Part shown: piece by piece, positions 21,257 to 59,200 of the stretch
How the letters are laid out: the number at the start of each line of letters is the position of its first letter
Position numbering within the stretch: position 1 is the stretch's first letter
Source: Cenococcum geophilum 1.58
Lineage: Eukaryota > Ascomycota > Dothideomycetes > Gloniales > Gloniaceae
Length of the DNA stretch: 64,000 bases
Direction of reading: 5' to 3'
NCBI GenBank assembly: GCA_001692895.1
Contig: KV748225.1
Location: forward strand, 1-64,000
Notes under the pieces: generated by a model
Told to the model about the DNA's origin: nothing
Databases searched by the model: none
The model's input: only the letters and a program-made list of their open reading frames with translations
Program-made: the position numbers and the translations under genes

Positions 21257-21582
21257 TATCGGGAAAATATAGTACCCTTTTAATGGCCTCAATGGCTAGT
21301 GGTTAACGCAATTGGCGCGTAGTTGAGGTCATTTAGCAACTTGACCGACTAGCCTATATCGTGTTTTTTTAACACGCAGCCTGCGCGTAGCCTGCGCGTA
21401 ACCTACGCGTAACTTACCAGCAATCTACGCATTTAGCAACCATAATTATATTTACCTCTTTTATACTAATAGTATATTTTAAATAAATAAAAGCTACTTT
21501 AAAGCTATTTATAAGGCTAGCAAAAAATATTATTATTTTAGATAATTTAATATAATATAACAATGGTTCTCTTTTACTTATC

Positions 21583-21985
21583 TACCTATTAACTTACCTA
21601 CCTGCCTATATTGCCTACCTATTTATATTACCTACCTATCTATATCGCCTACCTATTTATATCTACTTGCCTATCTATATCTACTTACCTATTTATATCT
21701 GCTTACCTATTTATATTTACCTACCTATCTATATTACCTACCTATTTATATTACCTACCTATCTATATCTACTTGCCTATCTATATCTACTTACCTATCT
21801 ATATCTACTTACCTATTTATATCTACTTACCTATCTATATCTGCTTACCTGTCTATATTTACCTACCTATCTATATTTACTTACTTATCTATATCTACTT
21901 ACCTATCTATATCTGCCTACCTATCTATATCTACTTACCTATTAGTATCTCCCTATTTATGCCTACCTGTTTATACTACCTTAAT
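21583..21985 (+). repeat. CTACCTAT(TTATAT) array of copy 1
   Basis: About 13-16-bp units of the type TACCTATTTATATC. The open frames across it (PTYLYYLP, LPIYIY) are by-products of the repeat. Confidence 0.9.
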
Positions 21986-22024
21986 TTAATTAATTAATTG
22001 AATCGTTTATAGTGTTCGCTAGCT

Positions 22025-22720
22025 AGTTATTATCGTCTAGCTCTAGCAATAGTTGTCTAGTTCTAGCGATAGTTATCTAACTCTAGAGACGGTCGTCTGG
22101 TTCTAGCAACAGTTGTTTAGTTTTAGTAACGGTCGTCTAGCTTTAGCAATAGTTGTCTAGTTTTAGCGACAGTTGTCTAACTTTAGAGACGGTCGTTTAG
22201 TTCTAGCGATAGTTGTCTAGTTCTAGTAACAGTTGTCTAGTTTTAGTAACGGTCGTCTAGTTCTGGTAACGGTCGTCTAGTTTTANCGACGGTCGTCTAG
22301 TTCTAGCGACAGTTGTCTAGCTCTAGCGATAGTCGTCTAGTTCTAGTGACGGTCGTCTAGTTCTGGCGACAGTTATCTGGTTTTAGCAACGGTCGTCTAG
22401 TTCTAGCGACGGTCATCTAGTTCTAGTGACGGTTGTCTGGTTCTAGCGACGGTCGTCTAGTTCTAGCGACGGTCGTCTAGTTCTGGCGACGGTTGTCTAG
22501 TTTTAGTAACGGTCGTCTAGTTCTAGCGATAGTTGTCTAGCTCTAGCGATAGTTGTCTAGCTTTAATAATGGTCGTCTAGTTCTAGTAACGGTCGTCTAG
22601 CTCTGGCAACGGTCGTCTAGTTCTGGTAACGGTCGTCTAGTTCTAGTAACGGTCGTCTAGTTTTAGTAATAATTGTCTGATTTTAGCGATAGTTATCTAG
22701 TTCTAGCAACGGTCCTCTAC
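22025..22720 (+). repeat. 20-bp GGTCGTCT array of copy 1
   Basis: About 35 units close to GGTCGTCTAGTTCTAGCGAC. One ambiguous base (n) lies at 22286. Confidence 0.92.
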
Positions 22721-22845
22721 TAGCTGCCGTTCTAGTGCCTCCCTAGGTAGGGAGGATATAAGAAAGAAAGGAAGGCTAAAAAATAAGGCGGCTATATAGG
22801 CAGAGATATATATAGACGCTATTGGGAATATAGCGGGGACCTGAT

Positions 22846-23268
22846 ACAGAGCTTTGTATAGAGCCTCTATACGTAGAGCTTTATATAAAGCTTCGCGTAG
22901 AGCCTTATATAGAGCCTCTATATATAGAGCTTTATATAAAGCTTTATATAGAGCTTTATATAGAGCCTCTATATATAGAGTTTCGCGTAGAGCCTTATGC
23001 AAAGCTTTATATAGAGCCTCTATACGTAGAGCTTCGCGTAGAGCCTCATATAGAGCTTTGTATAGAGCTTTGTGTAGAGCCTTTATATATAAAGCCTCGC
23101 GTAGAGCCTTATATAGAGCCTCTATACGTAGAGCTTCGTGTAGAGCTTTATATAAAGCTTTATATAGAGCTTTATATAGAGCTTCGTGCAGAGCCTCTAT
23201 ATATAGAGCTTTATATAAAGCTTTATATAGAGCCTTATATAGAGCCTTATATAAAGCCTCTAAGTAAT
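22846..23268 (+). repeat. 12-bp GAGCTT array of copy 1
   Basis: About 35 units of GAGCTTTATATA / GAGCCTCTATAT type, the RIP-shifted form of CAGAGCTTCGTG seen in the other copies. Confidence 0.92.
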
Positions 23269-23724
23269 AAAACTATATAAGATTGTATAAGATTATATTA
23301 AATAATATATAATAGTTAAATATATAGTATATAACTTTACCTTAATTGCATATTAAGAAATATATAGTTACCTTTTAAAGTTACTAAGTAGGTCAACTGC
23401 GTATTATTTAAATTTTAAATATGTTAAGTTAGTTAATTGCGTGTTAATTACGTGTTAAGTTGGTTAAATTACGTATTAAGTTAATTAATTACATATTAAG
23501 TTAGTTGAATTGCGTATTAAGTTAGTTAATTGCGTATTAAGTTAGTTAAATTGTGTATTAAGTTGGTTAATTGTGTGTTAAGTTAGTTAAATTGCGTGTT
23601 AAGTTAGTTAAATGCGTGTTAAGTTGGTTAATTACGTGTCGAGTTAGTTAAATTACATGTTAATTACGCGAAACGCGAAAATCAAAGTCTACTTAAATCT
23701 CATCCTACGAATATTTTCCCGATG

Positions 23725-24215
23725 TTTTTTATTTTTTAGGGGGAAAATAGGTACTCCCCTGCTCCTCCTTTTAGGCTTACTACTCGCGCTTTTCTTAGGG
23801 GCTATAATTATATAGTGCTAAGACAAAGCTATTGATTTTCTAGGGGGACTGGTGTAGAAATTGTTATTATTAAGTGAAATTTCGGGAGGGATATAAAATA
23901 AAGATCGAGATAATGCTAATATTATTATTATTAGAGTTGCTATTACTTCGTGGCTTTTTATAGCCTTAAGAGGGGAATTATAGGTCTTTTTAAGTGCATA
24001 TTAGCTCTCCCTTTACCACTAGCTTTCGTCTATTGCCCCTTACCTATTACCCCTTACCCGAGCTTTTTATTAAATTAAAGCACTTAATACGTGCGCCTCT
24101 AGTATAGACTAGAGTAAATTGCCGTTTATAAAGTATAAAGGTTTATAAGGGCTTAAATTCCTAGCGTCTAATTAATATTCTTAGCAAATTGCGATTAAAC
24201 TATATCCGCCTGTCT
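23725..24215. other. RIP-mutated DNA between composite copy 1 and chromovirus 3
   Basis: No gene recognised. Some short coding-like minus-strand segments may be the far 5' side of the Myb pseudogene locus. The last five bases (TGTCT) are the target duplication of chromovirus 3. Confidence 0.35.
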
Positions 24216-24636
24216 TATAATAAAGCCTTATAGTAGGGACTACGGTGGACTTGTTAATAGGCTAGGTATATAGGTATTGTAAGTAAGTTAACAACGTAAT
24301 AATAATTGGTGGAGTAGTTGCCTAATAAATTAACTCTGATTGTATTCTAAGAATCACTATAAGGAAGAAACTATCTAGGTAGGGACTAAAGGTCCTTAAA
24401 TACACAACCGTACTCCTATAAAATTCTTCTTATACGTGATATACGTCTTATACGTAAGGTATATAAGTTCCCTTTGTTCCTCTTATTCCTCTTATAGTAC
24501 CTTATATAACCTTAGTTACTATTTCTTGTTATATAGTTCTATAGGTTCTATCCTAGACCGTATTTATATTAACTAACTAGCTTCTTCTAACTCTTCTCTA
24601 AGTAATTATAATATTATACTTAAAGCATCCGTAATA
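24216..24636 (-). repeat. 3' LTR of chromovirus 3
   Basis: 421 bp, aligned end to end with the right copy. Confidence 0.92.
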
Positions 24637-24929
24637 CCATCTCCCTCCTTTCTATCTTCGTCCTTAAAGATACCTAGCATCTCTAAGTTATTTACTAGAG
24701 GTGTAATATCCGTCTAATTAATTTAGTTAATATTATTACTTATAATGCCTAAAGCTTCTTCCTCTTCATACACGCAACGTTGTGCTCGCACTATTGCTGT
24801 AATATTATTACTTAGTAAAATAATGCTATCTCCGTGTTCTTATTGCTTAAGGGAGGGATTAGTATATATTGCGCTGGTAAGTCCCTTGTCTTAGTAACCC
24901 TCCTTTTATTTAGAGTGTACTAAAGCAAA

Positions 24930-25370
24930 TATTTAATTATCTTGCGATGTTTGTTTTACTTCTAACGCTAAATATACACGTCCTATAACTCTTAATAGTC
25001 TTTAAGTTCCCTAAGTAATTTATTATAGGGTCTTATGTTTAATCTGCTGCTATAAAGCTTAATAGTAACCTAGCGCAGGCCCTTACTAAGCTTAAGCGTT
25101 CTTAGGATATAGAATAAAAGGCCCTAGATGCTCGCATCGCGGCGTCTACCCGTCTACTTTATCTTAAGAAGGTGCGTAAGAAGGTTTATTTTAAGGAGTA
25201 GAAGCTTATAAAATAAGGTTTGCAGAAACTTAGTAATAAAAGAACGGATTCTCTTCTAATAGCAAAGGAAATAACTCTAAGTAGTTTAGCAGTCGCTCTT
25301 TCTAGGTCCCCCTTAGGTGGCTTATTCTTTAGTAATTTTTTTTTATTAATATTGCCTAACCTTTTCTCTT
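24930..25370 (+). other. Coding-like stretch antisense to chromovirus 3
   Basis: Between the chromodomain and the 3' LTR, the strand opposite to gag-pol reads protein-like sequence: NSNLAQALTKLKR, ALDARIAASTRLLYLKKVRK and NKRTDSLLIAKEITL. The composition is basic and helical. The retroelement-sense strand of the same segment also has a 62-residue open frame (25186-25374), so which strand coded is not certain. It is fossil sequence inside a dead element; function unknown. Confidence 0.4.
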
Positions 25371-28300
25371 CCAATACTCCTGTACCTTTTTTATAGCGTT
25401 CTTTAGATTTTCTAGTAGCTCCTAGGTAGTCTTATTATAGCCTATCCACTTTACTTCGTACTATATTTTATTATTGACGTCCTTATAACTAATAATCTTT
25501 AAAACTTGCTATTTGTCTTCTTCTTATCCTCTATACATATCTGCCTCGTAGATTGGTGGCTTAATATTTCTGTGTGCTAGCTTTAGCATTATAATATGCT
25601 GTATAGGGTAGATCTTTATTTTAGCTAGTAGGTTTAACTTAAACGTAACTAATAAAATTTTCTGCGTAATTTTAAAAGGTCCTAGTCTAACATAGTCTAA
25701 CTTCTTACTTAGTTATCAACTCTTAAAATTTTTGTATAGTAGCTATACTTTATCTCCCTCCTTAAGATCTGGTCCCTTAGATCTCTTAGTATTATAGTAC
25801 TTTTTTATTCTTTACTGTACTGTTTTAGCTGTTTCCGTAAGGTTTATATAAAGATTTATTAAAGTCTCTATTCTTTACTTAGCTTTACTACTCGTTTTCT
25901 TTACTTATTATAGCAATAATAATGTTCTTAGCTCGTGCCTATAATTCGCCTTAAATAGTAACATACCTATTCCTTTTTGTGGTGTTATATTATATATAAA
26001 CTGTATAACTAGTAATAGCAATACCTAATTATTCTGTACGTAATTAATATAGTACCTTAGATACTGCTCTAGTATCTAGTTTAATCTTTCCGTTTAACCG
26101 TTTGTCTATAGATAATATACGGTAGAAGTTACTGCTTAAACTCCTTGCTTCGCTAAGAATACTTCCCAAAATATTACTACGAATCTTAGATCTCTATTTA
26201 ATATAATTTTACTTAGTGCTCTATATCTTGCAAATACTTCTTTAATATAGATTCTAGTGATATCTTTTGCTAAGATTTCTTCCGTATAGGCTATAAAGTA
26301 TCCCCACTTTATAAGCTTGTTTACTATTACTAAGATTACGTTATAATCTTATCCGGTAATAAGATCTTTTAATTTTAGTAACTTAATAATAAAGTCCTAT
26401 AATATAACCTTCTATAGTCTCTCTGGTATTTTAATAGGTTGTAGCCCTCTATACGGCTTATGCCTTGTTAGTTTATTTCTTTAGCAATTTAGACACTCCT
26501 TAATGACCCTTTTAGCTATTCTTTAAATTCTGTTAATAATATACTCCTCCTAGAGTCTTAATACTAAGCCCGTGGCTCTATTGTGTCCTTAAGTTAGTCC
26601 CTTATAGAAGTCCTCTATAAACTACTCTACTATACTTCTTAGGATGTACTTTGCTTCTTAATTTTCGTATATATCCGACTGTAGGTCTTCTAGTTATGCT
26701 TTTAAAATCCTTTATACTTAAAAGCTTTCTGGTGTCTTATAGACTTTCTTTTCTAACTTATTTTCTTATGTTGCTGTAATCTTTGGATGATTATACCTAA
26801 TTAGTCCATTTATGTCTTTTCGCAGTAAAGCCCCTAATGGCTTATTATTGTTTTATAGTTTAGCCTTTTAACTTAACGCATTGGCTCGCGTGTTATCTAT
26901 ACCCTTAGTATACTAAATTTCGAAATGGTATTCTGTAAGCATCTCTACCCATCTAACCTATTTTTAGTTAAGTTTCTTTGTTGTTAGGAATCCTATTAGG
27001 TTCTTATAGTCTGTTTTAACTATAAATGGTTTTTCTATACCTTATAAGAACGCTCTCTATTTTTTTAGTGCTATAACTATACCTAATAACTCCTTATTAT
27101 AGATGTTATAGTTTAACTCTAGTAGTATTATCTTCTGACTATAGTATGCCACTAGGTGCTATCTATCTAGATGCTTTTATATAAAGTATACTTCTAGTAT
27201 AAAGTCTAATATATCTATTTCTACAACTATCTCTAGTTCTAGTTAATAGATCTTAAGAACTAGCTCCTAGGTAAATAACTCTTTAACTTTTTTAAAGAGT
27301 TTTCGCTGTTCCTCTCCCCATGCCTATAGTTCTTCTTTCTTTATTAATTATGTGAATGGCTTAATATCTTTTAACTATTGCGCTATAAACCTCCTGTAGT
27401 AATTGCAAAACCCTAAGAATAATCTTAACTACGTAATATTCTCTAGTTCCTGCTAATTTACTATAGCCTTAATCTTCTTTAGATCTATACTAAGTTGGCC
27501 TAGTTTAATAATAAATCTAATAAAATTAGTCTTCCTGGTAAAGAACTCGTATTTCTTAATTACTACTAGCATCTATTCTTTCTATAGTCTCTTTAGTACC
27601 TATTTAATATATTCTCCGTGCTCTTCCTTATTTATTAAGTAGATAATAATATTATTAAGGTATACTATAACAAATTCATCTAAATATTCTTTTAATACAT
27701 TATTAATACGCTTCTAGAACATTGCTAGTGCGTTTATAAGCCCAAATTATATAACTAATAGTTTATATAGTCCTTCCTTTAATCTAAAGGCTGCCTTTTA
27801 TTTATTGCCTTCCTTAATCCTAATCTAATGGTATGCCTATCTTAGATCTATCTTTATAAAGATTTGCGCATTACCTATCCTGTTTTAGATTTCGCTAATT
27901 AAGGGTAAAGAATACCTATCTTTTCTAGTAATGCTATTTAACTATCTATAGTTGATATACAGCCTTAGTTTGCTATTCTTCTTTAGTATAAACAGTACTG
28001 GATATCCTACTAATAACTGCGATAGTCTAATATATCCCTTTTGTAAGTTCTCTTAGATAAACTCTTTTAGTGCTCTACCTTCTTCTTTAGTAAGCTTATA
28101 GATTAGAAAGAACCTTAGACTTATTCCTAGTTTTAATTCTATCTTATAATCCTATACTATATACTCTAACAGCTTTTCACTTTTAGGTAACTATAGTTTC
28201 TTGCTATACTTATAGTATCTTTTTAGTACATAGCTTAGCCCTTTTTCTATTTCTTTATAGGTCGCTCCTACTTAGTACTATACCAACTTAGCTTATTATT

Positions 28301-36954: not shown

Positions 36955-39900
36955 CTACCGGAGCTGCTAAGGGCCGAAGGAGAACATATACTGTTAGGTG
37001 ATTTCAATCTACACTACCCCTTTTAGGGGGGTGTAACAGTAATATGCGCGGACAACGTGGCGGATAACCTTATCCGCGCTATAGAGGCAGCTGGCCTAAG
37101 CCTAGCCACTAAGGCGGGCATAGAGACGTGGGTAAAGGGCATATTAAGGAGCACACTAGACCTAGTGTTTACCTCCCCCTAGATTACTAACAGGCTGCTG
37201 CAGAGTTAAAGACAAGACTGTTGGCATATAGGGTCTAACCACTTTCCTATTATTACGGAGGTTAATGTAGAGATATTAGAGGGGCCCCCTTTACCTAGGA
37301 GACCGTTATAGAAGAAGGCTAATTAGAAGGTAGTGTAGAGCGAACTAGAGGGCCGACTTTAGCCCCTATATAGACTCCCGTGCGATATAAGAGATAAACT
37401 AGATATACTAGTGGAGGCTATATACTAAGCGATTAAGAATACTATAGTAAAAACAGTACCTAATGTGCGGCCCTTACCGTAAGCCTCTAAAGTATGGTTA
37501 GAGGAATGTATAAAAGTGGTAAAGGAAACCCGATAGGCCTTCCGGGCGTAAAAGGTCTCTTAGTTAGTACCTAACTGGATTAACTATAGAGTCGCATAGA
37601 ATAAGAAGAAAAAGGCAATCTAATAAGAGGCTAATAAGCTATAGAGGAGGACCGTTAAAAAGCTAATAAATAACCCTAAAGGGATGTAGAGGATAGTAAA
37701 ATGGGCGCGCACAGTGGACGGGAAGCCGAAGGCCCTACTATAGTTTCCTCCTATTAGCAGACTAGGAGAGGAGACCCTACACTATAATAATAAGGAGAAG
37801 GCTATTATCCTTATAGAGTAGTTCTTTCTGCTGCTAGTAGAGGCGGACCTTAGCGATATACTAGGGTTTATATACCTAGAGCCGCGAATAGTAAAGAAAG
37901 TAGTTAAGGAGGAGGATATTATTATAGCCTTAAAGGGGCTTGCCCCTAATAAGGCCCTAGGTTTAAAGAAGATTACTAATTAATTCCTTAAGACGTGCGG
38001 AGAGCAGCTAGCCCTAGCGCTGGCTAAACTCTTTAGTAGCTATATAGCAATTGGATATTACCTAAAACCGTTTAAAGACTCTATTATAGTAGTTCTCCGG
38101 AAACTATAGAAGCCATCCTATACTACGGTAAAGGCCTACTAGCTGATCGCGCTGCTTAACACCATTAGGAAGCTATTTAAGAGAATAGTAGCTAGCTAAT
38201 TATCTAAAATTATAAAGGAGACAGGTATGCTACCGGCTAGTTAGATGGGAGTAAGGCCGGGGTACTTAACGTAGATAGTACTGGAGCTACTAACCTAATA
38301 GGTATATATGGTGTGGAGGAGTAACCTAAACCTAGTAGCCTTATTACTTAGCCTTAATATTTCCGGGGCCTTTAACTAAGTCTCCTATAAAAGAATAATC
38401 TATAATATAAAGGCCTAAGCCGTGCCCTACTGGATAGTATAGTTTATAAAGTCCTTCCTTAAGGATTAAATAACGAGGCTCTTAATTAGAGGATATATGG
38501 CATAAATAATATAAACGAACACCGGTATACCCTAAGGCTTAGCGCTGTTGCTAATCCTATTCCTCTTTTTTGCCTATACACTCTTACTAGAGCTAAAAGG
38601 GGGAACTACTACGGCATTTAGATTTATTAACGACTCTAATATATTAACGTATAGCAAGACTATAGAGGAAAACTGTAGAACTATAGAAAGGGCGTATAAG
38701 GTATACACGGCGTGGGTACGCCGGCATAAGGTAGTATTTACCCCTAAAAAGTACCACCTTATCCATTTTATAAGGAGCTATAAGAAGTTTAATATAAAGG
38801 CTATAGCTAACATATATGGCTTTATAGAAGGCCCAGTTAGTAACCTATATGTATTAGGGGTATAGGTTAACTTAAAGCTTAAATAGGGACCGTATGTTAA
38901 CATTGTTAAGACGAAGGCAATTACCTAAATAGCCGCACTAACCTGGCTTATGGCCTCTATATAGGGCGTCTTCTTTTAGAAGGCGCGGATAATATACTCT
39001 ACCGTAGTCCGGCTGGTAATCTTATATAGATATAGTACCTAGTACTTACTACCGGAGTAAATAAAGCCTAAGGAGATAAGTAAAACTAAGCTATACTAGC
39101 TAGGCGTAGTATAGAACCTATACCTTTATACTATTATAGGGGCGTATAAATTAACGCTAATAGTAGTACTGGAGTATAAGACGGGGTTTCCACCGCTATA
39201 GATATACCTTAAAGAGCTAGCTATAGCCTATGTAAAGAGGACGCGGGAAGGACTGGTAAGAGAGTATATTAAGAGGGAGTGCAACACTATATAGGCTATA
39301 ATAGCCTACTAACTCCGGCCTAGAATAAAGCTACTAATACGGCCCACTAGATGGGATAAGCTTAAGAGGATAGCGGCCGCTATTTTAGGGACATCGGCAA
39401 AATATAGTACCCTTTAAATGGCCTTAATGGTTAGTAGTTGACGCAATTGGCGCGTAGTTGAGGGCATTTGGCAACTTGACCGACTAGCCTATATCGTGTT
39501 TTTTTAATACGCAGCCTGCGCGTAACCTATGCGTAACCTATACACAACCTACTAGCAATCTGCGCATTTAATAACCATAATTATATTTACCTCTTTTATA
39601 CTAATAATATATTTTAAATAAATAAAAGCTATTTTAAAGCTATTTATAAGTCATCGGCAAAATATGGTACCCTACCAATGGCCTTAATGGTTGGTAGTTG
39701 ACGCAATTGGCGCGCAGTTGAGGGCATTTGGCAACTTGACCGACTAGCCTATGTCGTGTTTTTTTGATACGCAGCCTGCGCGCAGCCTGCGCGCAGCCTG
39801 TAAGTAACCTACGCGTAACCTATACGTAACCTGCTAGCAATCTGCGCATTTGGCAACCATAATTATATTTACCTCTTTTATACTAATAATATATTTTAAA

Positions 39901-40724
39901 TAAATAAAAGCTACTTTAAAGCTATTTATAAGACTAGCAAAATAAATATTATTTTAGATAATTTAATATAATATAGCGATGGTTCTCTTCTACCTATCTA
40001 CCTATTAACTTACTAACCTGCCTACATCGCCTACCTGTTTACATTACCTACCTATCTATATTGCCTACCTATTTACATTACCTACCTGTTTATATTGCCT
40101 ACCTGTCTATATTACCTACCTATCTATATTATCTACCTATCTGCATTGCCTACCTATCTATATTGCCTACCTATCTATATTACCTACCTGTTTATATTGC
40201 CTACCTATCTATATTACCTACCTATCTGCATTGCCTACCTGTTTATATCTACCTACCTATTTATATCTACCTACCTATTAGTATTTACCTACCTGTCTAT
40301 ATCTGCTTACCCGTTAGCATCTTCCTACTTGTGCCTACCTATTTGTGGTACCTTGATTTAATTAATTAATTAAATTGTTTATAGCGTTCGCTGGCTAGTT
40401 GTTGTCGTTTAGCTCTTGCGACGGTTGTCTAGTTCTAGTAACGGTTGTCTAGCTTTGGCGACGGTGGTCTAGCTCTGGCGACGGTGGTCTAGTTTTAGCG
40501 ACGGTCCTTTTTTACCTGCCTACCTGCCTGTGTTAGTGTATAATTTAATTTAGGGGAGGGGTTGGCCTAATTAAAGGCCCTGATTATATTTAAACGGGTA
40601 CCTCCCTAGGAGGCCTTAATTTGATTTGGTAATAGGCCAATATTAAAGCTCTAGTTTAATTTGATTAATTGATTAATTAAATCATTTGTGGTATTTACTG
40701 GCTGGTTATTTAAACGGTTGTTAT

Positions 40725-41090
40725 TTGGTTCTGGTAACGGTCGTCTAGTTTTGGCGACAGTTGTCTAGCTCTGGCGACGGTCGTCTAGCTCTGGAAACGG
40801 TCGTCTGGCTCTGGCAACGGTTGTCTAGTTCTGGTAATGGTCGTCTGGTTTTGGTAACGGTTGTCTAGTTCTAGCAACGGTCGTCTAGCTCTGGCGACGG
40901 TTGTCTGGTTCTGGTAACGGTCGTCTAGTTCTAGCGACGGTCGTCTGGTTCTAACGACGGTTGTCTAGCTCTGGCGACGGTCGTTTGGTTCTAGCGACGG
41001 TTATCTAGTTCTGGCGACGGTCGTCTGGTTCTGGCGACGGTCGTCTGGTTCTGGCGACGGTCGTCTAGTTCTGGTGATGGTCCTCTGCTG
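40725..41090 (+). repeat. 20-bp GGTCGTCT array of copy B (main part)
   Basis: About 18 units close to GGTCGTCTAGTTCTGGCGAC. Confidence 0.92.
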
Positions 41091-41203
41091 GCTGCCGTTC
41101 TGGTGCCTCCCTAGGTAGGGAGGATATAAGGAAGGAAGGATGGATAAAAAAAAATAAGGTGGCTATATAGGAGAGGCTATCGGGAATATAGCGGGGACCC
41201 GAT

Positions 41204-41706
41204 GTAGAGCTTCGTGTAGAGCCTCCGTACGCAGAGCTTTGCGTAGAGCCTTATGCAGAGCCTTTATACGCAGAGCTTCGTGCAGAGCTTCGTGTAGAGC
41301 TTCGTGTAGAGCTTCGTGCAGAGCCTCTGTACGCAGAGCTTTGTGCAGAGCTTTGTGTAGAGCTTTGTGCAGAGCTTCGTATAGAGCTTTGTGTAGAGCN
41401 TCGTGTAGAGCTTCGTATAGAGCTTCGTATAGAGCTTCGTGTAGAGCTTCGTGCAGAGCTTTGTATAGAGCTTCATGCAGAGCCTCTGTACACAGAGCTT
41501 CGTGCAGAGCCTCTGTACGTAGAGCTTCGTACAGAGCTTCGTGTAGAGCTTCGTGTAGAGCTTCGTGCAGAGCTTCGTGCAGAGCCTCCGTACGCAGAGC
41601 TTCGCGCAGAGCCTCGTGCAGAGCCTCTATACGTAGAGCTTCGTGTAGAGCTTCGTGTAGAGCTTCGTGTAGAGCTTTGTGTAGAGCCTTGTGCAGAGCC
41701 TTTAAG
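41204..41706 (+). repeat. 12-bp CAGAGCTTCGTG array of copy B
   Basis: About 42 units, mixing GAGCTTCGTGTA and GAGCCTCTGTAC variants. Open on both strands as tetrapeptide repeats; not a gene. Confidence 0.93.
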
Positions 41707-42477
41707 TAATAAAACTGTGTAAAAATTCATTTACGTAATTAGTATATAACTTTACCTTAATTGTATGTTAAGGAATATACAGTTAGCTTTTAAAGTTGTT
41801 AAATAGGTTAACTGCGTGTTAAGGAATATACAGTTAGCTATTAAGTAGGTTAACTGCGTGTTATTTGACTTTTGGATGTGTTAAATTGGTCAATTGTGTA
41901 TTAAGTTGGTTAATTGCGTGTTAAGTTGGTTAAATTGCATGTTAATTACGCGAAACGCGAAAACCAAAGTCTACTTAAATCTCATCCTGCGAATATTTTC
42001 CCGATAAAGGCTAGCAAAATAAACATTATTATTTTAGATAATTTAATATAATATAGCGATGGTTCTTTTCTACCTATCTACCTATTAACTTACCTACCTA
42101 CCTGCATTGCCTACCTATTTATATTGCCTACCTATCTATATCTACCTATCTGCATTTGCCTACCTATCTACATCTACTTACCTATCTATATTTACCTACC
42201 TGTTAGTATTTACCTACCTATCTATATCTGCTTACCTATCTATATTTACCTACCTATTTATATCTACTTACCCGTTAGTATTTACCTACCTATTTACATC
42301 TACTTGCCTATCTACATCTACTTACCTATCTGCATCTACCTGCCTATCTATATTTGCTTACCTATCTATATCTACCTACCTATCTATATCTACCTACCCG
42401 TCAGCATCTACCTGTTTATGCCTACCTGTCTGTGCTACCTTAATTCGATCGATCGATCGAATCGTTTATAGTGTTGG

Positions 42478-43205
42478 CTGGCTAGTCGTTGTCGTCTGGC
42501 TCTGGCGACGGTCGTCTGGTTCTGGCGACGGTCGTCTGGCTCTGGCAACGGTCGTCTAGTTCTGGTAACGGTCGTCTGGTTCTGGCGACGGTCGTCTGGT
42601 TCTGGTAACGGTCGTCTGGCTGGCGACGGTCGTCTGGTTCTGGCGACAGTCGTCTGGTTCTGGCGACGGTCGTCTGGTTCTGGTACGGTCGTCTGGTTCT
42701 GGCGACGATCGTCTGGCTCTGGCAACGGTCGTCTGGTTCTGGTAACGGTCGTCTGGCTGGCGACGGTCGTCTGGTTCTGGCGACGATCGTCTGGCTCTGG
42801 CAACGGTCGTCTGGTTCTGGTAACGGTCGTCTGGCTGGCGACGGTCGTCTGGTTCTGGCGACGGTCGTCTGGCTCTGGCAACGGTCGTCTGGTTCTGGCG
42901 ACGGTCGTCTGGCTCTGGCAACGGTCGTCTGGTTCTGGTAACGGTCGTCTGGCTGGCGACGGTCGTCTGGTTCTGGCGACGGTCGTCTGGTTCTGGTAAC
43001 GGTCGTCTGGTTCTGGCGACAGTCGTCTGGTTCTGGTAACGGTCGTCTGGCTGGCGACGGTCGTCTGGTTCTGGCGACGATCGTCCTGGCTCTGGCAACG
43101 GTCGTCTGGTTCTGGCGACGGTCGTCTGGCTGGCGATGGTCGTCTGGTTCTGGTAACGGTCATCTGGTTGACGAACGGTCGTCTAGTTCTAGCACGGTCC
43201 TCTGC
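42478..43205 (+). repeat. 20-bp GGTCGTCT array of copy A
   Basis: About 36 units of GGTCGTCTGGTTCTGGCGAC with a recurring shortened unit (GGTCGTCTGGCTGGCGAC). A higher-order repeat of about 60-80 bp is visible. The longest minus-strand frames (242 and 180 codons) come from it. Confidence 0.93.
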
Positions 43206-43330
43206 TGGCTGCCGTTCTGGTGCCCTCCCTAGGTAGGGAGGATATAAAGAGGAAGGAAGGGTAAAAATAAGGTGGCTACATAGGGTAGAGGCACGTGTAG
43301 AGGCTATCGGGAATATAGCGGGGACCCGAT

Positions 43331-43772
43331 GCAGAGCTTCGTGTAGAGCCTCTGTACGTAGAGCTTCGCGCAGAGCCTCGTGCAGAGCCTCTGTACGCAG
43401 AGCTTCTCCGCAGAGCCTCGTGCAGAGCCTCTGTACGCAGAGCTTCGCGCAGACCCCTCGCGTAGACCCTCGCGCAGACCCTCCGCGCAGAGCTTCGGTG
43501 CAGGAGCTTCGCGCAGAGCCTCGTGCAGAGCTTCGTGCAGAGCTTTGTGCAGAGCTCTGTACGCAGAGCTTCGTGTAGAGCTCCGTATAGAGCCTTATGC
43601 GAAGCTTCGTGCAGAGCTTTATGCAGAGCCTCTATGCGCAGAGCTTCGTGCAGAGCCTCTATACGCAGAGCTTCGTGTAGAGCTTTGTGTAGAGCCTCTA
43701 TGCGCAGAGCTTTATACAGAGCCTCTGTACGCAAAGCTTTGTGTAGAGCCTCGTGTAGAGCCTCCAAGTAAT
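43331..43772 (+). repeat. 12-bp array of copy A
   Basis: About 36 units of CAGAGCTTCGTG / CAGAGCCTCTGTACG type. Confidence 0.92.
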
Positions 43773-44786
43773 AAGACTATAAGATTGTATGAGATTGTAT
43801 AAGATTATATAAGATTATATATAATAGTTAAATATATAGTATATAACTTTACCTTAATTGCACGTTAAGAAATATACAGTTAGCTTTTAAAGTTGTTAAG
43901 TAGGTTAACTGTATATCGAGTTAGTTAAATTATATATTAAGTAGGTTAACTGCGTATTAAGTTAGTTAAATTGTATATTAAGTAGGTTAACTGCGTGTTA
44001 AGTTAGTTAAATTATATATTAAGTAGGTTAACTGCGTGTTAAGTTAGTTAAATTGCATATTAAGTAGGTTAACTGCGTATTAAGTTAGTTAAATTGCATA
44101 TTAAGTAGGTTAACTGCGTGTTAAGTTAGTTAATTGCGTGTCAAGTTAGTTAAATTGTATATTAATTACGCGAAACGCGAAAACCAAAGTCTACTTAAAT
44201 CTCATCCTGCGAATATTTTCCCAATAGATAGATATACGGCTAATAGACTTATCTAAAGCGCAGTATAAGAGAAGTAGAAGGGCTAGGGTATAAAAGGCGT
44301 TTAAGGAGCGGTAGAAAAGGGAATAGGAAAAGTATTAGAGTACGCTTACCTACTATATAATGGCCTAGGCCGAGCTATAGAATAAGGAAGTCTTTAAACG
44401 CCACGCGAGGCTTATAAAGGTAGAGAGTATAATTAATACGCTACTTAGAACCGAGTATATAGGGCTTAATAGATACCTCTATTACTAAAAAGTACTAAGG
44501 CACCCAACTCCGGCCTACCTATGCGGCTATAGCCAATAATTAATAATGCACGTAGTGGTGTTCTGCCCTAGGTACGCTGCTAGCCGGGCGGAAATATATT
44601 ACTATACTGGAATATCCTTATATAAAGAGCTTCTAACTAAGCTAAAGGCTGCCAAGGTAGTTGCGGACTGGTTTATATAGATAAACCTTTTACTACACCT
44701 TTTATTTGCTAGAGAGCTGGCTAGAATAAAGAGAGGAGGCTAGGAAGTGCATTAAGAGGCGGAGGATAAATACTATAGGGATGGTA

Positions 44787-46502: not shown

Positions 46503-49500
46503 TCATGCAGCTTGCATGATAATAATCTCTAAAATACCATCCAAATTAGCCACAACAATAAATACGTCTTGCCCAATCCTGACCACTCTCATTCTCGAAC
46601 CATCTTTTGACCCCGTTGTAAGCTTACAAACCTCTTCTCCCTCCTTTTCTAATGTGTGATCTGACCCATACCAAATCAAATGCTCTTTTACTCTAGCCCG
46701 GCGCATGGCCTCCTTTTCAATTGTGAGCAAGCTGTGATCTAAAAACATACAAGTAGTTAAAACATGTGGCAGCGCCACCTCGTGGCGGGGCAAAGTGCCG
46801 ACACCGCTGGATTTCGAGTTATGAGTTTGGGAAGGAAAGAACTGGTTCTGGGGTTTTTTGATAATGCACCCCGGGAATTCGTTGTAGGGAATAATGCAGC
46901 TGATGCTAGCTTGTTCGTACTAGCGAGTCGTTAGTCTAGGGCGGTTCGGAAATAGAATGCCGTTGGGTCAAGAAAGAAAGTCGGCGCGCGTAATATGGAA
47001 CCAAAGGATAAGAAAATCTCAAGGCATTTTTAGCCTAGCTAAAGCAATTGCAATACGTCCACGTGATATGCGAGGTGAATTCTTGTTGGCTTACCGAAGA
47101 GTATCGACCCACAGAGATAGGACGTGGAGAGATTGCGCCGCTTTGAGTTTGCCAAGTGTAAAGGTGACCTAGTCCTTGACTATGAGCCCAAGCATAGAGG
47201 AGGGTTCCTGCGTCATTAAAAGCCGCATGGGTAAACGCCTGGCCATGTTCAGCACTTAAGACGATCTCGTATTTCCTTGACCCGAGCGAGCGAGACCTAT
47301 TGTAATATGATTAGCAAGAGTAATCAGGGTTATCGAAAATAGGCGGCATACCATAACGTCGTAAACAAGATCGTGTCGTTGCACACAAATGCGGCGGCGC
47401 CATGTTGGGATAGCGCGATATTCTTGAGAGATACGAGTTGCTCGGGTCCGGGTGGTTCTAGTGTGCCTTCAGCATCGCGCATGTCTCGAAGATAAACCTA
47501 CATCCCGTTAGTGATTCGTATTCATGTCTGCTCGTCAAATTGTTTGAGCAAATTCACCATGTGTCTTCCACGTGCTAAGGATTGGCCCCATGCAACAATA
47601 TAGTAACCTTCCGCAGTGACAGCTTGCCAACTTTTCCCTTCAGGAAGTGACAGATTCGGAAGCTCAACGTATGACTTTTCCTCAAGCTTAATACTAAAGA
47701 CGTGAATTCTTGACCCGATCAAGTACGCCACGAGCTTTCCGTCACATGCCAGCGAAACATCAGTGATTATTCCCGTAGACCGGAGAAATGCATTCACAAC
47801 CTTTTTCTTTTTCTTAGTAGTCTGGGTCTTTAGGGAAATAATTATAGACGGTAGAGGCTTCCTAGATATGTCGTTTCTAATTACAATGCCATGTCCAGTT
47901 GCAGAATTCGGGACTTCCGAGAAGGGTCTAACACGATGCGGTTCTTCAGGCACAGAGCCATATAGGAAAGACTTTTCGGGATTTTCATCAGCTATGGAAG
48001 GTGTAGACGCTTCAGAATTTATTTGAATATAAGAAGCTTGTGGGGCTGAAAACGGTTGTGGTCGAGGTGGATTCCAGGACATGTCGTATGATGGAAGTTC
48101 GTATATGGAGTCCTGTCCGAGAGAAGGGCTCCACGGAGGTGAATGTAGAGCCGAAGGCGAGAAATGTAAGTCTATTTTAGGCAAGCTTTGTGGAGGATCT
48201 CCATTCTGGTTTCTGGAATCTCCACCAAAAGTGAGGGCGGGAACGATAACTATGGGCGTCGAATCAACCGTTGGAGGTTTCATTGATGTTAGCAGCGAAA
48301 CTGATTCTGTACCTGCGGTAGGCGTTGATAAAGGGGGATCATCTATCCAGGGCACATTCGAATATATTCTTGTTGAATGGGCTACAGGTTTTTCCAACTT
48401 CTCTGGGACGCATGATTGCATTTGAGGTTCTTGGAGCCATTTCGGTAGCGACGAAGTGATGGAGCCTTCCAAATCTTCATTTTTTTTAAATGGACAGTCC
48501 GTAATTTTGCTGTCTCGTCTAGAAGCTACCAGGTGAGTGTATATATGGCTGGTCATCTCCAAAACCCTGTTCGCGTCGGGCCTACGTTCAGCGTCGATGA
48601 TTAAGATGTCTAGAATTGTTGCGGCACAACAGCCTAGCCATTCAGCAGGCCGATCAAACCTCCTGGGTAAACGCTGAAGCCATTCTACAATCCATGGTCG
48701 AACTTGATACTGCTCGGGTGAATCTGGAGCTGAGGGAGAGCCCGCGGTTTTGTCGAGGTAGAAGTAGTCATCGCTCAAATTCCCCTTACGAACGATTTGG
48801 AATTCTTTAACGAGCTTGTCTCTGCCAAGCTCAAACGCGAGTACGTCGCTGAAGATGCAGCCAAAAGACCATACATCGCTCTTACGAGCGATTTCTTTCT
48901 GATCAGGAGAGAGATGAGATAGCTGGTCCCAGGAGGGTTTGCGTATCGTGACTTCGGGGGCCTGATATGTCCCTTTCGCGCGTCTTAATCTGGTTTTGGT
49001 AGTAATTTGGGAGTAGTAGTCGCCAATAGAGACATATTTGGAGTCTTGCTTCTGAGTGTCTTCTTTAAATACTGAAATCCCAAAATCTGAAAGCATCCAT
49101 CGACCGACAGGGGAGTCCTTGGCATTCTCCACGAGGATATTACTGGGCTTTAGGTCCATGTGGGCACAGAAAATTCTGCTGTGACTCTGTTCCATAGAAA
49201 TACCACTGTGAAGCCACGCAAGTGCATGGGCTACCAAGTACAATTGATGGAAAAGGGCAGTCGTTAAGTCCCCGCCTTTCGGGGCGGGAAATCGGTCTTC
49301 AAAATTGTATAGTCTCTTTCCGTCATCGCTGGTGCCACAGTGGAGAAACAATTCTAGATCCAGATGATCAGTTAAAGGGAGGAGAATGTAGTGTTTGGAT
49401 CCGTGAGTAATAGTAGCTAAATGTTTCATGATATTCCTGTGTTCGGTAAGGCTTTCTTTCAGGATCTTGAGATTTTTTATTTCAGTTTTGAAGTCCTGAC

Positions 49501-50214
49501 TGACTTCCAGCTTCTTACAAGCAACAATCTTGGCCTGGGAGACTGTTAGTGAAGGCCTTTATATCACCAGTAGTAGCTTACCTCTGGCCAGATCGTACCG
49601 TCTTCTTGCTTCAGGTAGCCGGCAGAAATGCTGACCCGAGTAACAGTGCCATATCCACCAATACAAACCTTCTTTTCCACAGTTTCGAAGGGCAGTGGCC
49701 TTCGTTCGTCCAAGACAAGTGTCTCTTGTGTAGAGGATACTCTAATAACCTCAGGAATAAACCGGAACTGCTCCTTGTAGAATGAGTGCCGGCTGGCGGC
49801 TTCTTCTAAAAAGTCCAACTGATGCTTATAAAAAGGTAGGTCTGAATCCCGAAGAGTAGGAATAGGCGTATTATGGTTGAAGAAGGAATGGAAGTCTAGA
49901 AGACCGCTGTGTGCGCCAGTGTAGACCAAAATGGATAAAATCTTGATAAAGTTTGCTCGAATTGCTTGGAACTTCGCGGAGCTGTATTGTTCCAGGTGTA
50001 GGATAGTTGCAATGGACTCGTCGGACCAGGCAGACTCAATATCTTTGTCACAGATGAACGCCTTTGAAGGATCGCCTGATCCTTTCATGCGCTCGTTTAT
50101 TTTATTGAATATTTTGTCAATAACTTCCCTCTTCTCTATCTGCTCAGAGTAGTGTTGATCTCCGGAAGCTTGTGGCTGACCCACTACATTCGAGCTGCTC
50201 ATGCTTACGGTCAT
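46503..50214 (-). CDS. Protein kinase with C-terminal propeller-like region, five exons
   Basis: Exons on the minus strand are 50214-49582, 49534-47558, 47497-47352, 47296-47095 and 46919-46503. All junctions keep frame and give 1124 residues. Introns of 47, 60 and 55 nt have GT...ctaac/ctaat...AG signals; the fourth (175 nt, branch-like ACTAAC) is the least certain. The kinase domain has a glycine loop CIGGYGTVTRV (184-194), the VACK lysine (218), a catalytic loop HMDLKPSN (336-343, HMD for the usual HRD), DFG (361-363), APE (403-405), SDVWSFG (about 430) and the closing RRPD (about 529). A Pro/Ser-rich linker (about 555-780) leads to a beta-rich region (SLACDGKLVAYLIGSRIHVF; VFIVVANLDGILEI) resembling WD/propeller repeats. 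Probably a serine/threonine kinase; substrate unknown. The ATG at 50214 is the first in frame; a second lies at codon 5. Codons show no RIP bias. Confidence 0.85.
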
Positions 50215-50722
50215 ACCGGCGAAGGCACTGGCCCAGGAAGCCGTATGCGAAGACCAATCACGCGTACGAGAAGGGGGCACTCAATGACGACGATAAGGAA
50301 GCTCCCATCAATCCCCGGATTGAGAAGAGCAAGGGTCTCCTAGGCTTTGCGGTTGTGAAAGGAACCATGAGGCTTGAGAAAATGGGTACTGTGGAGGATG
50401 ATAAGGCCGAAGGCGGAGACAAGGACGTGGGAGATTGTGGCGGCGCGACTGGGCAACAGAGGAGCCGGCTTTTATTGCGCGTTTCTATTTTCTCCTTAAC
50501 AAATCCTCATAAAATCCTCATAAGCACCTCCACGGGAAATATTGGCCCAAGGGTGTTAACTTAAGCTCTTTCACAACCTGCCATGCTGTTCATGCTCATC
50601 ATTTCCAAGTTTCTGCTCTGTTAGAAACGACAGCAGGTAACTGGGCGCACGGTCGGGAAGAAACAACCACGTGGCTTAGCTAAGTGTGGACTAAGTGAAA
50701 CTTCCGCTTATCATATTAAAGT
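50215..50722. promoter_or_regulatory. Upstream region of the kinase gene
   Basis: RIP-free sequence that should hold the kinase promoter and 5' UTR (minus strand). A plus-strand open frame covers 50172-50564 but has no recognised family. No TATA box stands out. Confidence 0.4.
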
Positions 50723-53849: not shown

Positions 53850-54440
53850 GTTATACTAAGCAGTAAGTTTAAGTGCGTTAGTTTAGGTTCTAATAGCTAA
53901 TAAACTAAGTCCCTAAGGCCTTTTATAGCCGCCTAAATAAGCTACTTACCCTTATTAATAGGGCTAAGCGCTAGCAGGTTGCTAGCGAAAATACGGCTAA
54001 CCTTAACGCTCGCGTTACTGCTGCCTAGAAGTCCTTTATAAAGGATATTAAGGCCTTAGTACGCACTAGCGCTAAGCACGGTCTTTATTAGCGCCTAAAG
54101 GGCGAAGACTTTTTCCTACTCTAAGTATAGGAATTATAGGCCATCCGTTATATCCTTAAAGGAATTCTTAATATAATGCGCGCTTTAGTACATATTATAG
54201 CGCAGGTATTTCGCTGTTATAGCGGATACTAATAGTACCTATAGGCTAATATGCCTCCTATTATAAGGGATAAGGAGGAGAATAAGGGTAAGGAGGATAA
54301 GGAGAAGAGAGAGGAGGATAAGAAGGAAGAAAAGGAGGAAGAGAAAGGAGGGGAAAAGAGGGAGGATTTATTAGAGCTGTAGAGTATCTGTATTTCTATT
54401 AGCGTACTACTATTACTCTGCTGTTATTCCATTATCGCCC
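53850..54440 (+). other. Coding-like stretch antisense to chromovirus 4
   Basis: On the strand opposite gag-pol, one frame reads protein-like sequence for about 590 bp: KAFYSRLNKLLTLINRAKR, ASENTANLNARVTAA, KSFIKDIKALVRTSAKHGLY, AIRYILKGILNIMRALVHII. It then has a highly charged tail of Lys/Glu/Asp (54275-54360) and a hydrophobic end. It sits between the chromodomain and the 3' LTR. Fossil sequence in a dead element; I do not recognise the product. Confidence 0.5.
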
Positions 54441-55099
54441 TACTAATAGGGCGTAACCCCAGTTATAATTAAAAGTTTTTTATTTTCCTACCTATTTCCT
54501 TTTCTATTTACCCCTTAGGGTAAAGTAACTATTATATATCTCCTTTGCGTCCTTATTAATGTCCTCTACTAAGACCTATTTATTATACTCTTCTAGCTAG
54601 CCTTTTTACTTAACTAGGTACTATAGGGTCTATTCACGTCCCTTCCTTCTATATACTTCTTCTACCTTATATTAGTCCTCTTAGTCTTTTTAATCGTCTA
54701 GCTTAATAGGCCCTAGTAAAGGATCTCTAGTAATACCCTTATATTATTTATATACATCGGGAAAATATTCGCAGGATGAGATTTAAGTAGACTTTGGTTT
54801 TCGCGTTTCGCGTAATTGACATGCAATTTGACCAACTCGACACGCAATTAACCAACTTGACACGCAATTGACCAATTTGACACATCTAAAAGTCAAATAA
54901 CACGCAGTTAACCTATTTAACAACTTTAAAAGCTAACTATATATTCCTTAACACGCAGTTGACCTACTTAATAGCTAACTGTATATTTCTTGACACGCAG
55001 TTAACCTATTTAACAACTTTAAAAGCTAACTGTATATTCCTTGACATGCAATTAAGGTAAAGTTATATGCTAATTACGCAAATGAATTTTTACACAGTT

Positions 55100-55640
55100 T
55101 TATTACTTAGAGGCTCTGCACAAGGCTCTACACGAAGCTCTACACGAAGCTCTACACGAAGCTCTACACGAAGCTCTACGTACAGAGGCTCTGCACGAGG
55201 CTCTGCGCGAAGCTCTGCGTACGGAGGCTCTGCACGAAGCTCTGCACGAAGCTCTCTGCACGAAGCTCTGCACGAAGCTCTGCACGAAGCTCTGCACGAA
55301 GCTCTGCGTACGGAGGCTCTGCACGAAGCTCTGCACGAAGCTCTACGTACAGAGGCTCTGGCACGAGGCTCTGCGCGAGGCTCTGCGTACGGAGGCTCTG
55401 CACGAAGCTCTGCACGAAGCTCTGCACGAGGCTCTGCGCGAAGCTCTGCGTACGAGGCTCTACACGAAGCCCTGCACGAGGCTCTGCGCGAAGCTCTGGC
55501 ATAACGGAGGCTCGTACTACGACAGCTTCTACACGAAGCTCTATACGAAGCTCTATAGCGAAGGCTCTAACCGTACAGAGGCTCTGCACAAAGGCTCTGC
55601 GCGAAGCTCTGGCGTACGGAGCGTCTACACGAACGCTTCT
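55100..55640 (-). repeat. 12-bp array of copy C
   Basis: About 43 units, seen on the plus strand as CACGAAGCTCTG. The unit spacing is more irregular than in copy B. Confidence 0.92.
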
Positions 55641-55779
55641 GCATCGGGTCCCCGCTATATTCCCGATAGCGTCTACACGTGTCTCTGCCTATGTAGCCCG
55701 CCTTATTTTTTTTACCCTTCCTTCCTTCCTTACATCCTCCCTACCTAGGGAGGCACTAGAACGGCAGCCAGCAGAGGAC

Positions 55780-56290
55780 CGTTGCTAGAACTAGATGACT
55801 ATCGCTAGAACTAAACACCGTCGCCAGAACCAGACGGACCGTTACTAGAACCAGACGACCGTCGCCAGAGCCAGACGACCGTCGCCAGAACCAGACGACC
55901 CGTCGTTAGAGCCAGACGACTATCGCCAGAGCCAGACAACTGTCGCTAGAACCAGACGACCGTCGCCAGAACCAGACGACCGTTACCAGAACCAGACGAC
56001 CGTCGCCAGAGCCAGACGACCCGTCGCTAGAGCCAGACGACCGTCGCTAGAGCCAGACGACCGTCGCCAGAACCAGACGACCGTCTCCAGAGTCAGACGA
56101 CTGTCGCTAAAACCAGACGAACCGTCGCCAGAGCCAGACGAACCGTCGCCAGAACCAGACGGACCGTTACCAGAGCCAGACGACCGTTACCAGAACCAGA
56201 CGAACGGTCGCCAGAACCAGACGACTGTCGCCAGAGCTAGACGACCGTCGCTAGAACCAGACGACTGTCGCCAGAGCCAGACGACAACGA
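55780..56290 (-). repeat. 20-bp array of copy C
   Basis: About 25 units, seen on the plus strand as CAGACGACCGTCGCCAGAAC. Confidence 0.92.
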
Positions 56291-59200
56291 CTAGCCAGCG
56301 AACACTATAAACGATTCGATCGATTGATCGAATTAAGGTAGCATAGACAGGTAGGCACAAACAGGGAGATGCTGACGGGTAGGCAGATGTAGACAGGTAG
56401 GCAGATACAGACAGGTAAGCAGATGCAGATAGGTAAGCAGATGCAGATAGGTAGGCAGATGCTGACGGGTAGGCAGATATAGACAGGTAGGCAGATGCAA
56501 CAGGTAGGCGATGTAGATAGGTAGGCAATGTAGACAGGTAGGCAATGCAGACAGGTAGGCGATGCAAGCAGGTAGGTAGATAGGCAGGTAGGTAAGTTAA
56601 TAGGTAGATAGGTAGAAGAGAACCATCGCTATATTATATTAAATTATCTAAAATAATATTTATTTATTTTGCTAGCCTTATAAATAGCTTTAAAATAGCT
56701 TTATTTATTTAAATATGCTATTAGTATAAAAGAGGTAAATATAATTATGGTTGCCAAATGCGCAGATTGCTGGCAGGTTGCGCGCAGGTTGCGCGCAGGC
56801 TGCGCGCAGGCTGCGTGTCAAAAAAACACGACATAGGCTAGTCGGTCGAGTTGCCAAATGACCTCAACTGCGCGCCAATTGCGTCAACCACCAGCCATTG
56901 AGGCCATTGAAAGGGTACCATATTTTGCCGATGTAGCTCTAGTAAGCTAATATAAAACACTAAGTAGATATAGTTAGTATACTTACTTTTTAACTAGTTT
57001 AGTTATACTAAAAGGTCTAATAAAGCGTGCTATAAGTTTCTTACTTAGCCTTTTTAGTTTAAGGTTCTTAGTTAATAGTAAAACTAAATCCCCTACTTTA
57101 TATACCTATAGTTAGTAATAATAATTATAGTATTTTACTTATACCTCGGCGGCGCCTTTCTAGCGCTTTGCTAGCGCTTCGCGTTTAAAGAATATTCTTT
57201 TAATCCTTTTAGAGGCGGCTAAAATAGAACTACTATCGTCCACCTAGACCTTATATTTTAGATATAGGTAAAACCTATAGTAGGTATAAAACGGGCTTAT
57301 ACCTATCGTGCTATATTTAGCATTATTATAGGCGAATTTGGCTAGTAATAAAAGGCCTACCTAGTTACTTTACTTTTTATTATAGAATATACAGAGGTAA
57401 TACTCTAGGGTTTAGTTCTAGCGTTCTATTTACCCGTCTATTTATAGGTAAAAGGCTATACTTAGCCTACATTATATTTTTATAGTAAAGTATAGCTCCG
57501 ACTAGAACTTACTAGTAAAGATACTACCGCAATTAAATATAATCCCCCTAGGGGCTCTAAAACGGCGTATTACTTCGTTAAGGAAGAGATCTATAAGTTT
57601 AGTTATAGTAATAGTTTTTACTATAGGCAGATATAAGGCCATCTTAGTATAGCGGTCGACTATTATATATATTGCGTTATATACCTTATCGCCTTATTTA
57701 CTAGGCGGTAGGCCTATAATAAAGTCTATTATAATCTCCTGTTACGGCTGTTCCGGGTAAGGTAGCGCTTAGAGCTCGCTATAAGGGCGATATTAAGGCG
57801 TATGTATACGTTAGTATAAATTATAGGTAGAGATATAGTTTATAACGTCCGTATTTATACTAGGCCAGTAGTACTTATATAAAAAAAGATTTAGAGTCTT
57901 TTTTTTACCGAAGTAGCTAGCTAGGGTATTATTATAGTGGATCTGTAGAAGCTCTATATAAACTATAGGGTTTAGGGGTATATATAACCTCCCGCGGTAA
58001 TAAAGTAGTCTAGTGAAATTAAACTGCCACACTAGCTTTAAGCGGGCGCGTTAACGGCGTCTTGCAGTATCTATGTTATCGCTGCGCTTTTATAGCATAA
58101 AGTTATCTTTAGTCTGAAGTCCTTTAATAAGCTTAACAACTGTTTCCGTACTAGACTTATAAGCACTCTTTTAAGTACTAGCTTCTCTAACTTAGGTCCT
58201 TATTATATGCTGCTTAACGGCATATATATAGGTTACCCAGTTAAACTATAATACTATATAGCCTAGGCGTACCGCCGTCAAGTCGCTAGCTTATAGCTAT
58301 AAAAATAACACCTTTATAGAAGGCTCGTTTTCTTATATACCTAATAGGACTTTTACCTTAGGTTAGTAGCCCTATATTCCCAAAGTCCTTTAAAGCAGTA
58401 GTAGCATAGTGTCTTCTTTTGGCGGACCCCCTGCGCCTAGGGGTCGCCTTAACGGCGCGTCTATAGGGTTTGTTTTTCCCGCCCTATATTTAATTACAAA
58501 GTTATAGGCAGCTAATACTATAGCCCATCTAGCTTACCGTCTATTAAGGGCTTTTACTTTTATAAAACCCTTTAGATTATTATAATCTATAAGCACTTCT
58601 AGGCGGCTTAATAGCCCCTTAATATAGTGTCTTTAATACTTAAAAGCCTCTATAATAGCTAGTAGCTCCTAATTATAGGTTTTATAATTACGCTCTACTA
58701 GCGAAAGCTTCCTAAACTAAAAGGCTATTAGATACTAAAGGCCGTCCTTAAACAGCTATAATATAATAGCTGCTAGGCCTTATATTAAGGCATTAGTCTC
58801 TAACTAGGTTAGTAAGCCTGGCGTATAGTATTGTAAAAGCGGCGCTATTATAAAGACGTTATAGAGCCGGCGTATTGCCTACTCTACCTCTTCTAGCTAA
58901 CTAAAAGGTTTAGCTTTACGGCCGTTCTTTACTCCCTTAAGGAGATTAGTAATAGGNTTNNCAATAGNANAGTACTTATAGATAAACTNGNAATAGAAGT
59001 TAGCAAANCCTAAAAANACCTAGACATCCCTATAGNATTAAGGGCTCTCCTACTTAGTAATAGCTTCTACCCAGCTAGGATCTATTACTACGCCTTTAGG
59101 ACTAATAATATATCCTAGGAACTTAACCTCTTATACGCCAAGCCTGCACTTCTTAAGGTTTATATATAGTTAATATTACTATAACCTATATAGCACTTTT

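Follow-up and report, generated by a model that had tools for sequence, protein, structure and literature searches.

In a Pezizomycotina genome of 177,193,698 bp in 162 contigs, the 64 kb at the start of contig C50, hereafter the window, contain four copies of an element in which several different minisatellites lie between short inverted ends. What kind of mobile unit carries such an interior, and which enzyme moved it? We consider these copies, at a probability of about 0.93, to be non-autonomous members of a Plavaka-type (CMCT/EnSpm-like) terminal-inverted-repeat (TIR) transposon family in a Pezizomycotina host. They are assigned to Plavaka because they share their ends with an element of ~20 kb in which a Plavaka transposase gene lies close to the 3' end. 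A puzzling repeat is thereby tied to a defined enzyme family, and hundreds of minisatellite loci were apparently placed by a Plavaka-type transposon.

Short elements with constant ends and ordered arrays

Direct reading and Tandem Repeats Finder (TRF) agree on the four copies that an earlier, sequence-only reading of the window had delimited. All have 14-bp inverted ends, a head, four arrays in one order and a tail; they start with [C/T]ATCGG[C/G]AAAATAT and finish with ATATTTTCCC[G/A]AT[G/A]. The short elements of the family measure 2-3 kb, with three minisatellites (unit lengths 18, 20 and 12 bp) between the shared ends. A frame scan of the window copies found only repeat-periodic frames and no transposase gene. 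The features are listed here with their target-site duplications (TSDs).

21257..23724, forward strand: copy A, both ends kept, heavily mutated by repeat-induced point mutation (RIP), GC 0.35; 18-bp array 21575-21942, 20-bp array 22033-22719, 12-bp array 22844-23257, 3' subterminal 20-bp array 23443-23663; flanks CT/TT, a 2-bp duplication differing by one transition
39392..44226, forward strand: copy B1, both ends kept, with copy B2 inside it; head up to 39651, arrays 42078-42398, 42491-43204, 43330-43764 and 43891-44137; TSD GA/GA
39652..42006, forward strand: copy B2, nested within B1; head 39652-39985, arrays 40022-40311, 40410-40505 plus 40728-41086 (insert 40506-40720 between them), 41203-41699 and 41878-41945; atypical junction with AAG on each side and one extra T
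39652..39985, forward strand: head, with the 14-bp TIR, subterminal CGCARTTR at offsets 50 and 61, and 11-bp CGCAGCCTGCG repeats
41203..41699, forward strand: 12-bp CAGAGCTTCGTG array, part of the non-autonomous interior
41800..42006, forward strand: 3' subterminal array TTAAGTTGGTTAATTGCG with inverted CGCARTTR motifs, followed by tail and TIR
54755..56933, reverse strand: copy C, inverted, both ends kept; arrays 54816-55013, 55113-55632, 55772-56285 and 56363-56592, head 56600-56933; TSD TA/TA

The family extends throughout the genome. The tail, searched as a 29-base pattern allowing two mismatches at most, has 424 matches (1 for the reversed pattern), and the head, as a 31-base pattern, has 469 (0 for its control). 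A search with the 334-bp head returned 753 first-look candidates, the best 40 of which were scored and yielded 41 matches at 86-100% identity. At 26 of the first 30 tail loci listed, which are not a random sample, the 12-bp array lay within 1.5 kb of the tail; the exceptions were L032, L035, L041 and L048. We then fetched the 20 best-ranked head matches after the window's own, a choice that biases the counts of TSDs and array order toward well-kept copies. Both ends were present in 19 of these loci (lengths 1,968-2,996 bp), and L076, with no tail within 5.5 kb, was left out. Together with the four window copies, the fetched loci make a set of 23 insertions.

Judged by median array positions, array order was identical in 22 of 22 copies (B1 excluded), and lengths differed, as had been claimed from the window alone. 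In L063 and L070 the order rests on three arrays, because the TTAAGTTGGTTAA motif was undetected there. Array cover ranged from 133 to 340 bp for the 18-bp repeat, from 100 to 640 bp for the 20-bp repeat and from 135 to 657 bp for the 12-bp repeat. The central 20-bp array is often divided by a non-repeat insert, as at window 40506-40720. Split 20-bp arrays occur in many other copies, and an inverted counterpart of this particular insert was recognized by eye in L083. Such modular, array-rich and apparently non-autonomous elements resemble Tetris of Drosophila (PMC4079207), and one could picture a foldback-type element in which tandem repeats form the inverted ends. The inverted ends are only 14 bp long, however, and the arrays differ from one another and lack an inverted-copy arrangement, which makes a foldback origin extremely improbable.

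The insertion sites record how the elements moved. An exact 2-bp target duplication flanks 21 of the 23 insertions (TA 10, TT 3, AA 2, TG 2, and one each of TC, AG, CT and GA), compared with a mean of 2.1 matches and a maximum of 8 across 361 other flank-offset pairs; no duplication of 3 bp or more was found in the 23. A Tc1/mariner (Stowaway-like) family of miniature inverted-repeat transposable elements (MITEs) with TA duplication would also leave 2-bp duplications, TA is the commonest dinucleotide here (10 of 21), and MITE families with 2-bp, mostly TA, duplications are described in another ascomycete (PMC4522978). Yet 11 of the 21 exact duplications are not TA, and the partner with the same ends contains a Plavaka match, so a Tc1/mariner family is very unlikely.

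The elements had also been described as inserted into a LINE (long interspersed nuclear element), an LTR (long terminal repeat) element and a sister copy. Two of these hosts stand. Copy B2 interrupts the head of B1, a stretch that is continuous in sister copies, and copy C sits inside a Gypsy element whose reverse transcriptase (RT), RNase H and integrase domains all score above cut-offs; a sub-threshold SH3_Tf2-1 match stops ~25 bp short of the copy C junction. Copy B1 (39392) lies ~0.5 kb beyond a LINE RT domain, and a flank scan, made on one strand per flank, found no domain past its other end; for copy A (21257) the same scan gave sub-threshold SH3/Chromo matches 1.6-1.9 kb away and nothing else.

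When the 60+60-bp flanks were compared, none matched another, which disfavours segmental duplication. A spread of satellite blocks by segmental duplication or recombination, with no transposition, could draw on the 12-bp repeat, which occurs outside the family as well, at window 145-706. It is contradicted by the 23 insertions, with their constant ends, exact 2-bp duplications, unrelated flanks and one nested insertion, and its chance of being right is close to nil. Mobility as a unit, the central claim of the sequence-only reading, thus holds, and the many constant-ended copies, together with the partner described below, bear out a non-autonomous DNA transposon lineage.

A ~20-kb Plavaka partner with the same ends

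A profile for the Plavaka transposase domain (PF18759) gave 266 candidates and 123 scored matches in this genome and none in 14 control genomes. We dropped 13 of the 123 rows, C-terminal halves lying beside another row, and of the remaining 110, 67 were near full length. Linkage between these matches and the family's tail, head and 5' interior was measured with positions from part of the matches in each search. Of the 67 near-full-length matches, 13 are followed on the same strand by a listed family tail at a distance of 2,074-2,246 bp (100 of the 424 tails were listed), compared with an average of 1.0 in 10 shifted control sets that counted any geometry within 6 kb. At the other end, a listed head lies 16,748-16,979 bp upstream of 6 of the 24 near-full-length matches on contigs C1-C12; 96 shifted sets gave a mean of 0.125 and a maximum of 1 in the 15-19 kb class.

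One such partner, at C10:374439-394371 (L085, L086), was read at both ends. Its termini are CATCGG..CCGATG and its TSD is TA/TA, and its head is 75-87% identical to those of all 22 small copies over positions 1-260 or more. The sequence-only reading had looked to an autonomous element with the same TIRs; this ~20-kb Plavaka element has them. By the standards of TIR transposons, ~20 kb is long. Searching with 770 bp of the element's 5' interior gave 80 candidates, 40 of which were scored (90-100% identity). With the query's own place counted, 38 of the 40 are followed within 60 kb by a Plavaka match in the same orientation, and the spacing is 15,628-16,790 bp in 27 of the 40 (mean 0.011, maximum 1, in 92 control sets for the 15-17.5 kb class). 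The positions compared were those of the 67 near-full-length Plavaka matches plus one, and of 30 of 76 DUF6532 rows. In 26 of the 40 scored partner copies, a DUF6532 match lies on the opposite strand, 258-285 bp beyond the 5' segment.

Published Plavaka elements have a PF18759 transposase, CATC..GATG termini and a 2-bp TSD (PMC12730594). According to the same source, the TSD is 2 bp in PlavakaA and 2-3 bp in PlavakaB, whose termini are CATCA..TGATG and whose criteria also include the transposase's place in the phylogeny and its C(2)C and H(3-4)H motifs. The family described here is like PlavakaB (CMCT) in its PF18759 match, its CATC..GATG termini and its 2-bp TSD. It differs in its termini (CATCGG in place of CATCA), in the ~20-kb length of its coding form, in having non-autonomous copies filled with minisatellites, and in its Pezizomycotina host, since PMC12730594 reconstructs Plavaka from Agaricomycotina. 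In Marasmius oreades, autonomous Plavaka elements were likewise defined by pfam18759 and non-autonomous ones by structure and TSD (PMC8290104).

Several observations weigh against this assignment. Half of the tested Plavaka matches (12 of 24) have no listed head within 60 kb, and another 6 of the 24 have one at 23-41 kb; similarly, 2 of the 40 5'-interior segments have no Plavaka match and 11 have one at 21.7-40.2 kb. The wider spacings are most simply explained by later insertions. The transposase is placed by its PF18759 profile match alone, and the family termini, CATCGG..CCGATG, agree with the published CATCA..TGATG in the first four bases and differ in the fifth. Two of the 23 junctions, those of copies A and B2, have no exact 2-bp duplication. 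Mobilization in trans and binding to the subterminal motifs described below are themselves deduced from sequence, and the partner's unread ~16 kb may yet contain the three interior arrays.

EnSpm/CACTA proper was rejected, as the termini here are CATC with a 2-bp TSD, versus the CAC termini and 3-bp TSD given for fungal EnSpm in published descriptions. The PF02992 profile matched nothing in this genome and nothing in the control genomes either, and is hence uninformative; the same is true of the Tet_JBP profile. The genome also holds a second Plavaka lineage (e.g. C64:386050, C13:2389530 and C32:1228596), in which the profile match is often in two parts; in 14 of 15 pairs picked by hand, it is followed 4.0-4.7 kb further on by a DUF6532 match in the same orientation.

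Shared ends, interior arrays and decay

How much of a short element does the partner account for? Head positions 1-260 align with the ~20-kb partner in 22 of 22 small copies and positions 295-323 in 19 of 22. Altogether, the short elements and the partner have ~320 bp in common at the head and ~540 bp at the 3' end, the latter including the TTAAGTTGGTTAA array and the TATAAGATTG array; in this region L041 is 70-71% identical to L073 and L075. The 3' subterminal array, tail and TIR likewise occur in the two Plavaka-linked tails, L041 and L048. The elements had been called 'built entirely' of four minisatellites. The four arrays are there, but 'entirely' is too strong, because the head and the 3' region with its TTAAGTTGGTTAA array are common to the coding partner.

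The 18-, 20- and 12-bp arrays were not found in the partner's first 2.27 kb (1.94 kb past the head), nor in the 1.5 kb that end L041 and L048; of the three motifs, only the 18-bp one had any matches in these parts, single ones at chance level. Because of this, the three arrays look like a private interior of the short elements, unless they occur in the partner's unread ~16 kb. A variant of the Plavaka explanation would take the arrays from the partner itself and make the small elements plain internal deletions. The common ends favour this variant, as do the 3' array and the TATAAGATTG array in L041 and L048, and the partner is not free of tandem repeats: positions 885-1028 of its 5' part contain three copies of a 48-bp unit, though one unlike the family arrays in sequence. 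Against it stand the missing arrays and a search with the spacer between the 20- and 12-bp arrays, in which none of the best 40 of 1,226 candidates fell within 19.5 kb inside 40 partner 5' segments, with ~16 kb of the partner unread. We consider plain internal deletion unlikely.

If the short copies are indeed non-autonomous Plavaka elements, the Plavaka transposase would have acted in trans on their TIRs. Putative binding sites for it are the subterminal CGCARTTR motifs: each of the 22 copies has one in its head at offset 50, 61 or both, and at least three inverted ones toward its 3' end. Their orientation is thus inward at either end, with extra copies in the 3' array; their background density, taken over the window's first 21 kb, is 0.14 per kb. 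Read as binding sites, they would make the 3' array part of the mobility signal, as the subterminal repeats of EnSpm elements are of theirs. The interior may have formed once and then been copied along with the element, its array lengths changing through slippage or unequal exchange. As for the private arrays, our guess is that they arose when synthesis that slipped filled a break in an element that had been excised or copied. RIP would afterwards have mutated the transposase copies.

Traces of RIP are plain in the alignment of 22 heads. Counted on both strands against the majority consensus, C>T changes affect 118 of 880 CpA sites (13.4%), versus 24 of 748 CpG, 9 of 572 CpC and 9 of 726 CpT sites, that is, 1.2-3.2% at C sites outside CpA. 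This bias toward CpA is the signature of repeat-induced point mutation. The same alignment has 33 A>G changes, which are expected wherever the majority is itself mutated. Stop codons occur in all 123 scored Plavaka matches. Given these stops and the RIP-type mutation in the heads, the family is probably extinct, or no longer mobile, although an intact copy could exist among the unscored candidates.

Related modules, known systems and the rest of the window

Some loci depart from the common plan. L082 belongs to a divergent subfamily whose first array is the same as the family's. L083 has the family's TIR and first ~140 bp, then a CCTGGTCGTCC-type repeat and an inverted 20-bp array with its neighbouring spacer; in this chimeric relative (L083/L084, C66:321100-324130) a GGCA array and a 9-bp GTCCTAATG array follow. 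A 16-base TIR variant, CATCGGSAAAATATNW, had 15 matches (11 in the control), and the three that were read are the relatives L081-L083, with no transposase reached.

Outside the family, the 12-bp repeat at window 145-706 lies beside a 447-bp sequence (1195-1641) with 1,636 first-look candidates, of which 40 were scored. Window 125-1641 is thus another high-copy repeat carrying the 12-bp CAGAGCTTCGTG repeat. Together with L082 and L083, it suggests an exchange of modules among repeat families, in either direction. Because the 12-bp repeat adjoins this other repeat family and L083 has its modules rearranged, short Plavaka elements might serve as vehicles in which minisatellite modules are put together and rearranged, and by which they are spread among unrelated repeat families, a tentative idea that has some chance of being right and a larger one of being wrong.

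That tandem repeats lie within DNA transposons, and that satellites are born from them, is already known from Tetris, Atenspm/ENSAT1 and Jozin. Tetris of Drosophila virilis is, like the present family, a non-autonomous DNA transposon with tandem repeats and many rearranged forms. Its repeats, however, measure ~220 bp and lie within foldback-like TIRs, and their expansion to kb-size satellite arrays has been demonstrated for Tetris and not for the family described here. Arabidopsis Atenspm with ENSAT1 and the CACTA-like Jozin of Chenopodium are EnSpm/CACTA-group elements tied to satellite DNA (PMC9659126); their repeats are listed as coming from a 5' UTR or a transposase region, and the table entries for them give no ordered multi-array interior. 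Oyster Helentrons are also non-autonomous mobile elements that disperse tandem, satellite-like arrays (PMC7492417).

Helentrons are rolling-circle elements without TIRs or a TSD. Plavaka beyond mushrooms is not new in itself, since a 'plavaka transposase' is named among proteins of plant-pathogenic fungi (PMC10156984) and Plavaka is a prevalent family in Rhizophagus (PMC11075540). In our literature searches, made largely on open-access text, neither a Pezizomycotina Plavaka pair nor an element whose interior consists of several ordered minisatellites came up. The present genome yields such a coding and non-coding Plavaka pair, with a coding form of ~20 kb that has decayed through RIP, and the origin and length change of tandem arrays inside a mobile unit become testable across hundreds of related copies.

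Apart from repeats, the long open frames of the window are those of a kinase-like gene at 47522-50280. It encodes a kinase-domain protein and lies among RIP-mutated repeats. Its two nearest homologues are at 96% and 89%, and the named ones come from Pezizomycotina ascomycetes such as Coniosporium, Acephala, Mollisia and Rhizodiscina.

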